This document shows positions 19,074-26,202 of a stretch of 64,000 bases of DNA, in pieces. The DNA is taken from positions 1-64,000 of the forward strand of contig CAMDMA010000011.1 in the NCBI GenBank assembly GCA_945902075.1, written 5' to 3'. A program made the translations under genes and the position numbers. The stretch's first letter is position 1, and the number at the start of each line of letters is the position of its first letter. The DNA is from Candidatus Kuenenia stuttgartensis. GTDB taxonomy: Bacteria > Planctomycetota > Phycisphaerae > Phycisphaerales > SM1A02. The notes under the pieces are model-generated. The model saw only the letters and a program-made list of their open reading frames with translations. It was not told the DNA's origin and searched no databases.

Positions 19074-22000
19074 ATGCCCCAAATCATGACACAGAATCCC
19101 ATCGCCGCTTCCGCCTCTGCTCCCGCGGCTCCCCGCTCTCAGTCGACCGTCGCGCAGAAGTGGCTGTTGAACTCAGTGCTTGCGACTGCGCTGTCCGTTG
19201 GCTTCTTTTCGGAGGCGCTTACCGCGTCTCCGTCCGAAGCTGCAGGGGCACCGATCGCTGATTCAAACACCAAGTCAGCCTCGCTCGCGCTGCGCGCGCG
19301 GCCGCTTGGAACAAAGCGCGATCCGGTTGAGGCGCTCGTGCCCCGCAATTTGCGCGGTACCGGTGTTGAGCCAAGCGCTCATGATTTCCCCGGCACCTTC
19401 GTCGTGAAGTTCCGCGATGAAGTCAAGGCACGCGTGATCACCAGCGATTTCTCCTTCGAAGGCGCTGAAATTACGAGCCTCTCAGGCCGCGACATCACGC
19501 TTGCCCAATCGCTCATTCGCTACTTCGGCGGTGAAACACGACAGTGGATCCGCAAATCGCAGAGTGAACTCGCGAACCTTGAAGTGCGCGCAAGCACCAT
19601 GAGTGGCCGCGCACAGCCTGACCTCGCGGGCATGATCCTTGTGTCGGGTGTTGCCACTGAGCAACTCTTCGAGGCCGCGCGTACTCTCAATGAACTCGAT
19701 GTAATTGAGTTTGTTTCGATCAGCCGGCACCATGCAAACCTTCAGTGCGATCCGGCGAACCCCGCCGACTGCAATGTGCCGTCGCCATCCTGCACGAATC
19801 CATTCCCGGGCACAGACGCAGAGAATCGCACCGACTGCAATCCCGATCCGGGCGGCGACAATCCGCTCTACGGCTGCAACAACCCTGACTGCTGTACACA
19901 GGTTGCTGCATTCGACCCACTCTGCAGCGACCCCGACGACGGCAATGGCTGGGACGTCTACTGCGCCGCGTATGCGAACATGCTCTGCGGTGGATCCGTG
20001 TATGCGCCAGCACCGGACACCGGCGACTTCGACCCGTGCTTCTTCGATCCCACTGCGCCTGACGACATCAACCCAATCTTCGAACCCGTGTTCTCACAGT
20101 TTCAAGCGGGTAGCTGCGTCACACCGCACAACGGCGCGGGTTGTAATCAGCCTGCCTGCTGTGCCGCGGTCTGCACCATCGACCCGACCTGCTGCTCGCT
20201 CAACGACGGCGCGTGGGACTCGAGCTGCGCCAATCTGGTTCTTTCGGGCCAGGTCTCGACCTGCGTGATCCCGACCCCGACGTCGGACGACTCGCCGGAT
20301 CTCACAGTCCAGCAGACCCCCACAGGCCTTCAGGGCTACCAGTACTACACGCAAGGTGGACCGCGCTCGGCAGAACTCGTCGACTACGCGAATCTCGGAG
20401 AGACTTGGCTTGGTGCGCTCGGAACGGGCGCCCTTGGCTTCTCCGGTCACGGCCTTGCGCTTGAGGAGATGGACGAGTTCCAAAACCTCATCTGGCAGTT
20501 CTATCAGGGCGGTGTTGCTGGAACCAATCCCTACTTGCGGGGCGCCGGTGTTCGCATCGGTATTCTCGAATCCTCGGGCTACACCCTGCACGAGGACTTC
20601 ATCCTCGCAGGTCCGGCAAAGAATCCGACTCGACCGTGGGATGGCCCGCTGCTCGGGCAGTCCAAGATCATTGCTGAGGCTGGGCAGTCTCCGCTCTTTA
20701 TCGAGGCAGGCAACATCAGCGCAAACCACGGTACAAACGTGATGGGCGTGCTGCTCGCGGCTGACAACGGCTTCGGCGTGACCGGCGTCGCGAGCGGCGC
20801 GCAGGGTTACTTCTATCCAATCGTTTCTGCTGAGAACGGCTTCCGCGCTCAGGATGCGCTGGTGTCGTGCCTGAGCGAGTTCGAAGGAGGAGATGTCATC
20901 AACTTCTCCTGGGGTTTTGTTGGTGGTACGACCTACTTCCCGACATCAACCGCCGGTATTCCCGTGAATCCGGTCACCTCGGATATCGCCTACTCCGTGC
21001 TTCTGACCCTTGGCTCAGACCTCGGCGTGACCTCGGTTGTTGCAGCAGGATCCGGAGCCCGCGCAATCGAGGGTTCAACCGAAGTCGACCAGGGAGCGAT
21101 CATCTGTACGGCGATCTACCCTGGCAATCTTCTCGAAGGTTCTGCGCAGCTTCCCGGCTACCGAACATGTGAGGTTGCCTTCGACCAAGAGAATCTCAAC
21201 CTGATCCGCTACCCCGGAAGCAATTTCCAGGGTGAGGACACTGAGAATGCGGATCAGGTACCCACGGCCTCGGGTTGGGGCTACGCGGTCGCGACGACAG
21301 GCGCGTCGACCAACTACGACAACACCACTGTGCCGAACCCCGAGTCCTTCTTGTTCCAAGGACTCAATGATCAGCCGCCGACGGATGTGGCGGCTGGCCT
21401 CCAGGTCGACCGTCTCCGCACCTACACCCAGAATTTTGGCGGCACCTCCGCAGCCACTGCAATGATCACCGGCGTCGTCGCTCGCATGCAGGCAGCAGCG
21501 AAGCAGTTCTACGGGACGCCGATTTCTGCCGGCTCGATCCGACGGATCATGATCGACACTCCGAGTTCCTTCGGGCAGTGCCCATGCTCGCTCGCAGCAT
21601 GGCGCGACGCCCCGTGGGGTGAAGGCCCGCCGTTCGAAGCTGACAGTTGCGCCCCCCCCGAATGCACCGGTGCAGACGAGTGCATTCCGATCGGTTGCGC
21701 ATGTGAGCGGCGTTCCGTGGCTCGTTTCCCAAACCTCCAGCAGCTCCCCGCCACGCTTCTTGGCGCCGACCTCTTCGACGGCAACCAAGCCAATGTCGAA
21801 GTCATCACCGGTGGACAACTCATCGGATACTCCTGGAGTTCTTTCCAGATCCGCGTCGAGGACAACAACTTCCTGCGTATCGCGCCGGAGCGCGTAACAG
21901 CCGGAACAACTCGCCAAGGATTGACCTACCTCGCAACTGGTCCGTCCACAGATGTTCGCGTGAAGTTGAAGGCACCCTTCTCAGATCCCCAGGCTGAGAT

Positions 22001-22301
22001 CAACTCGCTTGGACTTCGACTTGTTTCGCGAGCCACGAAGAACTTTGTGCTCGCTGGTGCATTCGTCTACAACTTTGGCACGGGACGATACGAGTTCTTC
22101 GGTTCTGATTTCTTGACCACCATCTCGAACACGCTTCAGTTCCAGCTTCCTGATACCGGTTCGTATGGTCAGTACCTCGACCCGGCGACCGGTGAAATCG
22201 TGATGCGCGTCTGGACTTGTGCCCTCGGAGCGACGGGTCGCCATCAGGTTGCCCACGATCTGATTGAGATCGTCATCAACAACCCGTTTATTCCGCTTTG
22301 A
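19074..22301 (+). CDS. Secreted S8 (subtilisin-like) family peptidase with two Cys-rich modules
   Basis: VRIGILESSGYTLHEDF / ANHGTNVMGVLLA / FGGTSAATAMITGVVARMQ triad regions; Cys-rich modules at residues ~260-310 and ~345-400. Confidence 0.85.
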   Translation: MPQIMTQNPIAASASAPAAPRSQSTVAQKWLLNSVLATALSVGFFSEALTASPSEAAGAPIADSNTKSASLALRARPLGTKRDPVEALVPRNLRGTGVEPSAHDFPGTFVVKFRDEVKARVITSDFSFEGAEITSLSGRDITLAQSLIRYFGGETRQWIRKSQSELANLEVRASTMSGRAQPDLAGMILVSGVATEQLFEAARTLNELDVIEFVSISRHHANLQCDPANPADCNVPSPSCTNPFPGTDAENRTDCNPDPGGDNPLYGCNNPDCCTQVAAFDPLCSDPDDGNGWDVYCAAYANMLCGGSVYAPAPDTGDFDPCFFDPTAPDDINPIFEPVFSQFQAGSCVTPHNGAGCNQPACCAAVCTIDPTCCSLNDGAWDSSCANLVLSGQVSTCVIPTPTSDDSPDLTVQQTPTGLQGYQYYTQGGPRSAELVDYANLGETWLGALGTGALGFSGHGLALEEMDEFQNLIWQFYQGGVAGTNPYLRGAGVRIGILESSGYTLHEDFILAGPAKNPTRPWDGPLLGQSKIIAEAGQSPLFIEAGNISANHGTNVMGVLLAADNGFGVTGVASGAQGYFYPIVSAENGFRAQDALVSCLSEFEGGDVINFSWGFVGGTTYFPTSTAGIPVNPVTSDIAYSVLLTLGSDLGVTSVVAAGSGARAIEGSTEVDQGAIICTAIYPGNLLEGSAQLPGYRTCEVAFDQENLNLIRYPGSNFQGEDTENADQVPTASGWGYAVATTGASTNYDNTTVPNPESFLFQGLNDQPPTDVAAGLQVDRLRTYTQNFGGTSAATAMITGVVARMQAAAKQFYGTPISAGSIRRIMIDTPSSFGQCPCSLAAWRDAPWGEGPPFEADSCAPPECTGADECIPIGCACERRSVARFPNLQQLPATLLGADLFDGNQANVEVITGGQLIGYSWSSFQIRVEDNNFLRIAPERVTAGTTRQGLTYLATGPSTDVRVKLKAPFSDPQAEINSLGLRLVSRATKNFVLAGAFVYNFGTGRYEFFGSDFLTTISNTLQFQLPDTGSYGQYLDPATGEIVMRVWTCALGATGRHQVAHDLIEIVINNPFIPL
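19840..19995 (+). repeat. Cys-rich module copy 1 (divergent) inside S8 peptidase
   Basis: GCNNPDCCTQVAAFDPLCSDPDDGNGWDVYCAAYANMLCGG. Confidence 0.6.
20115..20265 (+). repeat. Cys-rich module copy 2 inside S8 peptidase
   Basis: CVTPHNGAGCNQPACCAAVCTIDPTCCSLNDGAWDSSCANLV. Confidence 0.75.
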
Positions 22302-22308
22302 TCTTCTT

Positions 22309-22347
22309 GCAGGCCGTTCGTGAAATCCGCGAACGGCCTGCTTGTTT
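22309..22347 (+). terminator. Rho-independent-type terminator after the S8 peptidase gene
   Basis: GCAGGCCGTTCG-(9 nt)-CGAACGGCCTGC, perfect 12-bp stem (22309-22320 / 22330-22341) followed by TTGTTTG, 7 nt after the stop. Confidence 0.75.
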
Positions 22348-22554
22348 GAATCGTTTCGCTCTCCACCGTGGTGGGGAGAACACGATGTCTGCGAGCACCC
22401 CAAGTATTACGCCGCACCTCGCTCCCAGATGTTGACGTCCGTAATCGAGTTGTATTCGGGCGGCCCCGAAGCGCACTCTGTTCAGAATCTCGATTGTCGC
22501 GTTTGGGCCATCCAGACCTTGCCAACTGTTTGATTCAAACTCCAAGCGCTGAAG

Positions 22555-22645
22555 ACTTCTCAAGAATCAAGAATCAAGAATCAAGAGTCAAGCCTCACGC
22601 CTCAAGCCTCAGAATTTACGCCTCAAAACTCACGCCTCAAGCCTT
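22555..22645 (+). repeat. Heptanucleotide tandem repeat array, ~13 units
   Basis: ACTTCTC AAGAATC AAGAATC AAGAATC AAGAGTC AAGCCTC ACGCCTC AAGCCTC AGAATTT ACGCCTC AAAACTC ACGCCTC AAGCCTT: unbroken 7-bp register. Confidence 0.9.
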
Positions 22646-22676
22646 CGTGCTTGAGTGCCGGTTCCAGGAGCACTCC

Positions 22677-25454
22677 ATGCAGTTTCCGTCCATTGCCCTT
22701 GTTCTTGCCCTGCCGATCTCGGTTGTAGTCGCTGCACCGGTCGCGGCGCAGTCCCCATCGCTTGGCGAGCGATCCGTGTTTTTGTCGCCTTTCCTTCCAG
22801 CATCGACCCCGACGATTCGGTTACCAAGAGGGGCGCGAGAACTCGAGTTCCTACCCGAGCTCGTCGACATGATCCCGATTGGCGGCGTCTTTGACATCGT
22901 TCAATTCCCGATGCCAGACGGCACACTCCGCGACATCTGGATGACGGAGTTCAACGTCGTCGACGATGACGCGACCATTGCGGTCATGCAGGCCGGAGCC
23001 GAAGGAACTGCCGCCGCCAACTACGGTCTGATGCCCCAGGTGCGCACCTTCCGAGGACGCGTCACTGGCGTGGACAATAGCCTCGTCTATCTCGCGTTCT
23101 CACCCGACGCCATCTCCGGAATGATCCGGGTTGACGGCACGATGTACAGCATCTCGAACGGCCCGCGCGGCGACATGCCCGTGGTGATCAGCGACATCTC
23201 AAACCTGCCCGAAGGCGCCATCAACTGGGCGGAGTACACCTGCCAAGTGCGCGGCGACCTGCATGGAGAGGGAGTTGCGCCCGGCGAAGGTGGCATCGCC
23301 GCTCTTGGAACGTGTAAGAAGATCGAACTCGCCTTCGAGACCGACAACGAGTTCCGCGGGCTGTTCTCGACGAACCAGGCCGCGATCGACTACGCCACGC
23401 AAATTGCGGGCGGAATGAACGTGATCTATTACGAGGAAGAGAACCTCTACCCGGTTGTCAGCTTCCTCCGCATCTGGTCGCCGGGGGTGACCGATCCCTG
23501 GACCGCGGGAAGCTCTGGTGCCCAGTTGGATCAGTTCGTCGGAGCATGGGCAGGCGGACAGGGTCCCGCGGGATCGAACCCGCGCGACCTTGCCCACCTC
23601 GTTTCAGCCCGTGACCTTGGAGGCGGCGTTGCCTACCTCAACGCCGTGTGCAACCCAAATATTGGTTTCGCGGTGTCGGGCAACATCTCTGGCTTCTTCC
23701 CGTTCCCGCTTGAAAGCAACAGCGCGCAGAACTGGGACATCATGGTCACCACCCACGAGATGGGCCACAACTGCGGCTGCAACCACACACATGACCTCGG
23801 CGTCGACAACTGCGTCGGTGGTGCGTGCATTAGTAACGGCACGATCATGAGCTACTGCCACCTCTGCCCAGGTGGCCTTGCGAACATTGTGCTCAACTTC
23901 GCGTCGGCGAATAAGGCGCAAATGGATGCCCACCTCGGGGGCGTTGCATGCCTTTCGACCCCCTGCCCGATTTATGACCCCTCCGCTTTCCGAGCATCGG
24001 ACGGCAGTTTCATCGATGCCGTCGTCCTGACTTGGAACGGACCAGCCATTGCTGCCGCGCGATTTGAGATTGAACGCCGAGTTGTGGGAACTGTTCCCTA
24101 CAGCTCGCTCAATGCGAATGTCGATCCGTCACTTCTCTCCTATAACGACACCTCGGCCGCAACAGGCGTGAGCTACGACTACCGCATTCGATCGATCCGC
24201 GTGGACGACGGAAATCCTTCTGACTGGATCGGTCCGGACTCTGGCTTCCGCGGTGCCGTTGGGCCGACCAACCTCTCTGCATCGGATGGCGAATTCTCCG
24301 ATCGTGTCGCGCTCGTTTGGGAGGCCCCCATCGGCTACACCCCAATCAAGTATCGCGTCTACCGAACCACGCTCGGTGGTGGTGCGCTTCAGATTGACGA
24401 GACCACCAACACCACCTACCTCGACTCTGGGACCTACACCACGCCAGATCCGGCGTATCCCGACACTGACGGCGACGGTACACCCGGGCCCGTGGAGCCG
24501 ACCAATCCCGGCGCTGTCTATCAGTACGAGGTTCGTGCACTTGCGACCGCAACCATTCTGAGTGCACCATCAACCGACACAGGCTTCCGCTCGATTCCTG
24601 GGCCGTCGAACCTCTCTGCAACCGGCTCCATCAACGGAACCCTTGCGCCAATGACCGATCGTGTGCGACTCTCTTGGAGCGTGCCGGGCGGGATGAACCG
24701 AATCTACGTCTACCGCTCATCGTCAGGTGGCGCCTACGTGCAGGTGGCCTCCCTATCCGGCGGTTTCTCGGCCTGGTCCGATTTGAATGTGGCATCCAAC
24801 GTCTCCTACAACTACAAGGTCCGCGGCTTCTCAAACCTTCAGGGAATGACAGCGCCTAGCGAGCCAGATCTTGGCTTCAAGCTCGAGGCTCCGCGGGTGG
24901 CGTCCGCCTCGGACGGTGCTGGTGCGAATGTCGTCGTTGTCTGGTCTGCTCCGGCAACCTGGACACCCTCCGCCTACTCGATCTGGCGCAAGCCGTCAGG
25001 GCGCGACCCGTGGCCAGCGTCGCCGCTCGCCGCGAATGTTGCGGCGGGAGGCTTCAACACCTACGTTGACACGACTGCCACTCCAGGTGTGGTGTATGTG
25101 TATGCGGTCACCGCGAAGTCCGCACAGTTCAACACCTTTAGCACGCGTGGGTCAACCAATACCGGCTACGCAACAGTACTGCCGCCAATCAACGTCGCGG
25201 CGTCAGACGGAACCTTCCCTGGCTTTGTCGAGTTGACTTGGACCCCGGTGGGTGCCTCGTCTGGAGTGTTCTTTGACGTGTATCGCCGTCGGGCGAACAC
25301 CAACGAAACTTACGTTCTGTTGACGTCGGCACTTCAGGCATCCACGCTCGACCAAACTGCAGTGTCGGGCGTTGTGTACCAGTACTACGTCCGCACGCGC
25401 ACAACGAACGGCGCAACTTCGCTTCCAAGTGCGACCGACACTGGCTTCCGCTGA
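22677..25454 (+). CDS. Secreted zinc metalloprotease (metzincin, M12B/reprolysin-like) with C-terminal fibronectin-III-like repeats
   Basis: Signal peptide MQFPSIALVLALPISVVVAAPVAAQ; HEMGHNCGCNHTHD zinc motif (23754-23795) with downstream TIMSYCH Met-turn; five ASDG..(D)xVxLxW..P repeats. Confidence 0.88.
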   Translation: MQFPSIALVLALPISVVVAAPVAAQSPSLGERSVFLSPFLPASTPTIRLPRGARELEFLPELVDMIPIGGVFDIVQFPMPDGTLRDIWMTEFNVVDDDATIAVMQAGAEGTAAANYGLMPQVRTFRGRVTGVDNSLVYLAFSPDAISGMIRVDGTMYSISNGPRGDMPVVISDISNLPEGAINWAEYTCQVRGDLHGEGVAPGEGGIAALGTCKKIELAFETDNEFRGLFSTNQAAIDYATQIAGGMNVIYYEEENLYPVVSFLRIWSPGVTDPWTAGSSGAQLDQFVGAWAGGQGPAGSNPRDLAHLVSARDLGGGVAYLNAVCNPNIGFAVSGNISGFFPFPLESNSAQNWDIMVTTHEMGHNCGCNHTHDLGVDNCVGGACISNGTIMSYCHLCPGGLANIVLNFASANKAQMDAHLGGVACLSTPCPIYDPSAFRASDGSFIDAVVLTWNGPAIAAARFEIERRVVGTVPYSSLNANVDPSLLSYNDTSAATGVSYDYRIRSIRVDDGNPSDWIGPDSGFRGAVGPTNLSASDGEFSDRVALVWEAPIGYTPIKYRVYRTTLGGGALQIDETTNTTYLDSGTYTTPDPAYPDTDGDGTPGPVEPTNPGAVYQYEVRALATATILSAPSTDTGFRSIPGPSNLSATGSINGTLAPMTDRVRLSWSVPGGMNRIYVYRSSSGGAYVQVASLSGGFSAWSDLNVASNVSYNYKVRGFSNLQGMTAPSEPDLGFKLEAPRVASASDGAGANVVVVWSAPATWTPSAYSIWRKPSGRDPWPASPLAANVAAGGFNTYVDTTATPGVVYVYAVTAKSAQFNTFSTRGSTNTGYATVLPPINVAASDGTFPGFVELTWTPVGASSGVFFDVYRRRANTNETYVLLTSALQASTLDQTAVSGVVYQYYVRTRTTNGATSLPSATDTGFR

Positions 25455-25614: not shown

Positions 25615-26202
25615 ATGCCCGGTGCTCTGAAGGCAAGTAAACCAATCGCGCCCGCTGCGCTGACCGCGCCCGACGAGGTCCGTCTCGCTCAAGATCGCTT
25701 TATCGCCTTCTGGGGTGAGATGGGTACGCGTTGGGGCGTGCAACGCAACATGGCCGAGGTACACGCTCTTCTCTTCATCGCCGGCGAGCCGCTTGCTGCG
25801 GAAGACATCATGGAGCGTCTCTCCATTTCTCGGGGAAGCGTCTCCACCACTCTCAAGCAGCTCGTCGAGTGGGGATTGGTTCAGCGTGTGAAGTCAAGGA
25901 TCAAGACGGATCGCCGTGAGTATCACCAAGCTGAGCAGGATGTCTGGAAACTTTTCTACACGATTCTCCGCGCTCGCAAGCGCCGCGAGTTTGATCCTCT
26001 CCTTGAGCAACTCGGCGGATGTCGCGCGACTACGAAGAGCAGCCGCCGAAGCGACCGAGAAAAACAACACGATCAGAAGATTGACGATCTGCTCGCGCTG
26101 TGCGTGTTCTTTGATGGACTCGCCAACACGATTTCAAAGTCAGGCAAAAGCATCGAGCGTGCGAGCAAGATCCTTGCCCGCTTGATTGGGGCACCACGAT
26201 GA
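25615..26202 (+). CDS. GbsR/MarR-family winged-helix transcriptional regulator
   Basis: FIAFWGEMGTRWGVQRNMAEVHALLFIAGEPLAAEDIMERLSISRGSVSTTLKQLVEWGLVQRVK: wHTH with GbsR-like N-terminus. Confidence 0.85.
   Translation: MPGALKASKPIAPAALTAPDEVRLAQDRFIAFWGEMGTRWGVQRNMAEVHALLFIAGEPLAAEDIMERLSISRGSVSTTLKQLVEWGLVQRVKSRIKTDRREYHQAEQDVWKLFYTILRARKRREFDPLLEQLGGCRATTKSSRRSDREKQHDQKIDDLLALCVFFDGLANTISKSGKSIERASKILARLIGAPR

Follow-up and report, generated by a model that had tools for sequence, protein, structure and literature searches.

The spacer between the stop codon of a secreted subtilase gene (22301) and the ATG of a secreted metalloprotease gene (22677) contained a degenerate heptanucleotide tandem array. 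All positions refer to the window, which is the whole 64-kb stretch of DNA that was analyzed. The features of the locus are collected in Table 1. The initial annotation had placed the array after the terminator of the preceding gene and 31 nt upstream of the ATG of a secreted metzincin. These points could be confirmed, as a strong hairpin of the subtilase gene precedes the array, the distance to the ATG is 31 nt, and the downstream gene carries both the domain match and the zinc motif of such a protease. The translated N-terminus of the metalloprotease is signal-peptide-like.

Table 1. Features of the locus surrounding the heptanucleotide array (window positions)
Feature	Position	Strand	Evidence
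Upstream gene, secreted subtilase (Peptidase S8)	19074..22301	+	PF00082, E 3.5e-13
Intrinsic terminator of the subtilase gene, 14-pair stem	22309..22341	+	
Degenerate heptanucleotide tandem array, 12-13 units, skeleton TCANGNN	22559..22645	+	TRF, pattern match, lag scan
Sub-array TCAAGAA, 4.7 copies, 96% match; perfect stretch 22560-22586 only	22560..22592	+	TRF and sequence
Sub-array TCAAGCC / TCACGCC, partly period 14, with two decayed units (AGAATTT and AAAACTC)	22588..22645	+	
Hairpin, last unit CTCAAGC pairing with GCTTGAG just 3', approximately -12.4 kcal/mol as RNA	22634..22658	+	
Probable Shine-Dalgarno sequence AGGAG, 6 nt 5' of the ATG	22666..22670	+	Inferred from sequence
Gene, secreted M12B (reprolysin-like) metalloprotease	22677..25454	+	PF13688, E 4.7e-17; zinc motif HEMGHNCGCNH
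MarR-like regulator gene, synteny anchor kept in the genus	25615..26202	+	

Period and composition of the array

TRF analysis of positions 22559-22644 revealed a period of 7 with 12.3 copies and 70% matches. Direct reading of the sequence reproduced the order and register of the 7-bp units that the initial annotation had listed for 22555-22645; the first of them, ACTTCTC, and the unit AGAATTT were found to be poor copies, so that the clear array extends over 22559-22645. All 13 units had A in column 1 and T in column 6, while column 7 was C in 11 units and column 3 was G in 10. The longest perfect tract covered approximately 27 bp (3.9 units). The register was evaluated by matching (TCANGNN)3TCA, allowing at most two mismatches, over the 64-kb window and over 100 shuffles. 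Eight matches could be observed in the window, every one of them within the array, compared to an expected number of 0.17, and none of the 100 shuffles reached eight. When lags 4-15 were scanned across the window, values of 0.68-0.69 were reached for lags 7 and 14 at the array alone, with lag 12 as the runner-up (0.60) elsewhere in the window. The TRF result, the shuffles, and the lag scan thus identify a tandem repeat with a unit length of 7 beyond chance.

Some functions could be discarded at this stage. A coding function of the array was rejected because seven is not a multiple of three and the complement reads TGA in most units, which places stops in all three frames of the minus strand of 22559-22645. 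Many TGA-type arrays in relatives likewise have stops in all three frames of the complement strand. The GTG-initiated ORF at 22368-25454, which reads through the array, looks like an over-extended call. A role as a structured RNA was rejected, since the 5' region (22545-22700) folded no better than its shuffles (z 0.93) and the Rfam search returned sub-threshold matches only. G-quadruplex formation was dismissed as no GGG run occurs on either strand of the array.

The locus in the genus and further arrays in the genome

The purD-subtilase-marR gene order was kept in the genus. Nevertheless, the array was absent from the purD-subtilase-(protease)-marR locus in all five same-genus relatives compared (G015, G013, G012, G003, and G001). 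The protease gene is present in G015, with 57% identity over query residues 18-404, and its preceding spacer is approximately 134 bp long, compared to 375 bp here; this shorter spacer is free of repeats and has a terminator-like hairpin of its own. The protease was missing from the locus in G013, G012, and G003, while G001 gave a partial protease-like match only, and no heptad array could be found in the region in any of these four genomes. The array is lineage-specific; it either arose after the split from G015 or disappeared in G015. The initial annotation had named absence from all close relatives, joined with a lack of copy-number variation and of any effect on expression, as what would refute its proposals; of these, absence is what the syntenic locus shows in the five genomes. 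Of the relatives checked, G015 alone had a full-length metalloprotease gene between the subtilase and marR genes, as the source genome does; this gene has been gained or lost at a fixed site between its two neighbors.

A search of the rest of the genome, which had been proposed together with the initial annotation, revealed at least two further period-7 arrays with different units and several 14-mer arrays. The second heptad array of the genome, detected by a degenerate pattern search at C8:100563-100634 (L010:4564-4637), consists of GAAGCAC/GAAGCAT on the complement and has a related skeleton. It lies near a contig end, upstream of a minus-strand aldose-epimerase-like gene named from its translation alone. 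The third, with the units ATGTCCC/ATGTCGC, is located at C41:22485-22557 (end of L096, start of L016). The same contig, C41, also holds a 14-mer array at C41:26429-26485 (L016:3938-3985), which is situated at the end of an open frame and whose unit contains TCAAGAA. Two more 14-mer tandem arrays of this genome were observed at L250:4652-4730 and L079:13018-13073, and a 10-mer tandem array, TCACGATTCA, at G000 C15:67711-67753. Period 7 was not dominant among the arrays of the source genome in the sampled stretches (approximately 656 kb), a count which scores the window's own array as coding because of the long open frame running across it. The genome was also searched for a dispersed element with flanks in common, and none was found.

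Heptanucleotide arrays in the family, the phylum, and beyond

At the family level, 22 of the 181 genomes matched five units of YGANNCN, some of them at many places, and each array-holding genome had its own favourite heptamer. At the phylum level, the TCANGNN skeleton was present at period 7 in 33 of 199 genomes and at period 8 in 7 of 199, although the skeleton had been derived from the window itself, so that the comparison of the two periods was not a blind one. When 600 kb from G027, G034, and G114 were scanned in an unbiased manner for intergenic arrays with periods of 4-20, 11 of 14 arrays had period 7; period 7 thus dominates the spacers of these three relatives, which were picked as array-rich in the family search, so that this share is not descriptive of the phylum. 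The initial annotation knew of no counterpart in planctomycetes, a statement that, as regards the genomes, does not hold given the heptad arrays in the same genome, the family, and the phylum. A literature search for heptad repeats in planctomycetes found no paper on them, and a broader search returned general planctomycete papers only.

Longer TCANGNN runs occurred in many phyla and in one archaeon, in at least 119 stretches overall. The titles of these stretches include Acidobacteria, Bacteroidetes, Chloroflexi, Cyanobacteria, Desulfobacterales, Verrucomicrobia, Actinomycetes, Spirochaetes, Pseudomonadota, a Planctomycetota bacterium, and a Methanophagales archaeon. Where arrays of the same skeleton elsewhere were placed relative to genes by a heuristic ORF call, a start codon lay downstream on the same strand in 26 cases and on the other strand in 35, while 14 arrays were placed between convergent genes. 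A further 26 fell within open frames, in every case on the strand left stop-free by the unit; these may be over-extended frames, so that the orientation counts are rough. Among genomes that were at least 90% complete, the array-holding ones were larger (median 3.6 versus 2.6 Mb; 14 versus 97 genomes; Mann-Whitney p 1.5e-5, a statistic that ignores phylogeny), as would be expected for tolerated spacer DNA.

Among the simple sequence repeats (SSRs) of many bacteria, heptamers are reported to be over-represented, with polymerase slippage as a proposed explanation (PMC4692102, PMC4679880). The array shares with the heptameric SSRs of Mrazek 2007, as cited in these two papers, the unit length of 7, the mainly intergenic position, and the occurrence in many genomes. 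Several loci per genome, another property of this class, are occupied here as well (the C8 and C41 arrays). The one specific difference found was the degeneracy of the copies in the array; planctomycete examples are not described in the two papers. The array can be counted among these 7-bp tandem repeats, a broad class that bacterial spacers contain in excess, and the surplus of heptamers known from other bacteria extends to this phylum. The comparison made in the initial annotation, to the STRR of heterocystous cyanobacteria, was correct insofar as these are 7-bp tandem repeats in non-coding DNA, but it was too narrow in view of the over-representation across many bacteria. In cyanobacteria, STRR mostly have a unit of 7 bp and no known function (PMC2670836); only the period is common to both, whereas the unit differs, as does the host phylum according to the planctomycete label of the initial annotation.

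Better-described heptads resemble the array in part. The GGGAATC repeats of Xanthomonas and the GGGGA(C/T)T repeats of Nostoc are similarly degenerate with some fixed positions and intergenic; they differ in length between relatives and occupy many loci per genome (PMC4692102). In contrast to the array, these heptads are G-rich and G-quadruplex-capable. The TAACTGA repeats known from Beggiatoaceae, Cyanobacteria, and Bacteroidetes are heptamer direct repeats near start codons (PMC4679880), yet their heptamer is fixed and Maribeggiatoa carries it in 169 sets with 2-6 copies each, while a single long degenerate array occurs here and none of its units reads TAACTGA. The 7-bp ATCTTTC repeats of hmwA in Haemophilus influenzae, a proven heptad rheostat (PMC8262952), likewise form an array 5' of a gene for a secreted or surface protein; the hmwA tract is longer and was shown to vary and to control expression, whereas the array in this locus is imperfect.

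Origin of the array and its possible effect on the protease gene

The array is likely to be a recent, near-neutral heptanucleotide minisatellite which was produced by replication slippage and came to lie in the 5' region by chance. A short 7-mer seed in the non-coding spacer may have been expanded by slippage at least twice. The first expansion would have produced the TCAAGCC/TCACGCC type, which is now decayed, and the second the less decayed TCAAGAA type, with point mutations picked up since. The two sub-families and successive expansions suggested in the initial annotation fit the sequence. Of its three options (a length-variable spacer affecting protease expression, a multi-site protein or sRNA binding array, and neutral slippage), the last is the best supported, and the regulatory ones could not be supported owing to the absence of the array in the five relatives and the lack of a consistent gene orientation among the arrays elsewhere. 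The protease gene is probably affected little by the array, if at all. Regulation by the array is possible, the evidence for it being the position and the unstructured sense strand; closeness to the start codon, together with the unstructured sense RNA, the hairpin, and a good Shine-Dalgarno sequence, makes an effect within the 5'UTR conceivable.

Since the array is interrupted outside its short perfect tract, slippage at a high rate is unlikely at present, and the hmwA tracts considered in PMC8262952 are 13-24 repeats long. An expression rheostat, in which slippage would change the number of units and thereby tune transcription or translation of the protease gene, is therefore an unlikely reading, although the array does follow the preceding terminator and stand before the start codon of a gene for a secreted protein, has a period of 7 in a 5' region, and finds a precedent in hmwA, where more repeats give less transcript (PMC8262952). 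The array is also missing at the syntenic locus in the relatives, including the gene-bearing G015, and a Sigma-70 promoter scan of the locus found no promoter. Alternatively, the G-poor, unstructured repeat RNA could act 5' of the hairpin and the Shine-Dalgarno sequence as a ribosome standby or as a binding stretch for S1 or cold-shock proteins. The sense RNA of the array folded less well than all 200 shuffles (-2.1 versus -8.6 kcal/mol, z +2.70), while the antisense RNA was not less structured than its shuffles (z 0.05), and for TAACTGA repeats close to start codons, MacGregor suggested S1, Csp, or Csr as the binding partners (PMC4679880). However, a repeat of a non-self-complementary unit is expected to be unstructured anyway, and the array is not conserved at the locus. 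Furthermore, arrays of the same skeleton occur in both orientations and also between convergent genes, which does not fit a strand-specific 5'UTR role. Such an element is thus very unlikely.

One heptamer tended to be reused at many separate loci within a genome, as could be observed in the relatives G239 (TCAGGCT), G263 (TCAGGTG), G026 (TGATACC), G034 (CGAACCG), and G329. Slippage alone does not account for this reuse. The spread of heptad arrays between loci by recombination, template switching, or a mobile carrier would explain the genome-specific units, and the TCAAGAA within the 14-mer of C41 is consistent with it. For the present array, an origin as a dispersed copy is hardly probable, since the spacer at 22342-22676 was not significantly matched anywhere else in the genome (best 38 bp, E 0.08), which argues against a shared carrier sequence, and the search patterns restrict which units are seen. 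A phylum-wide active dispersal and homogenisation, where a trans-acting process fixing the unit at seven bases copies the heptamer of each genome to many spacers and the present array is a recent insertion that happens to retune the protease, would be highly improbable. The array itself is ordinary, while G027, G114, G026, and G034, each with dozens of array matches, are suited to asking why the unit has seven bases and why one unit prevails per genome.
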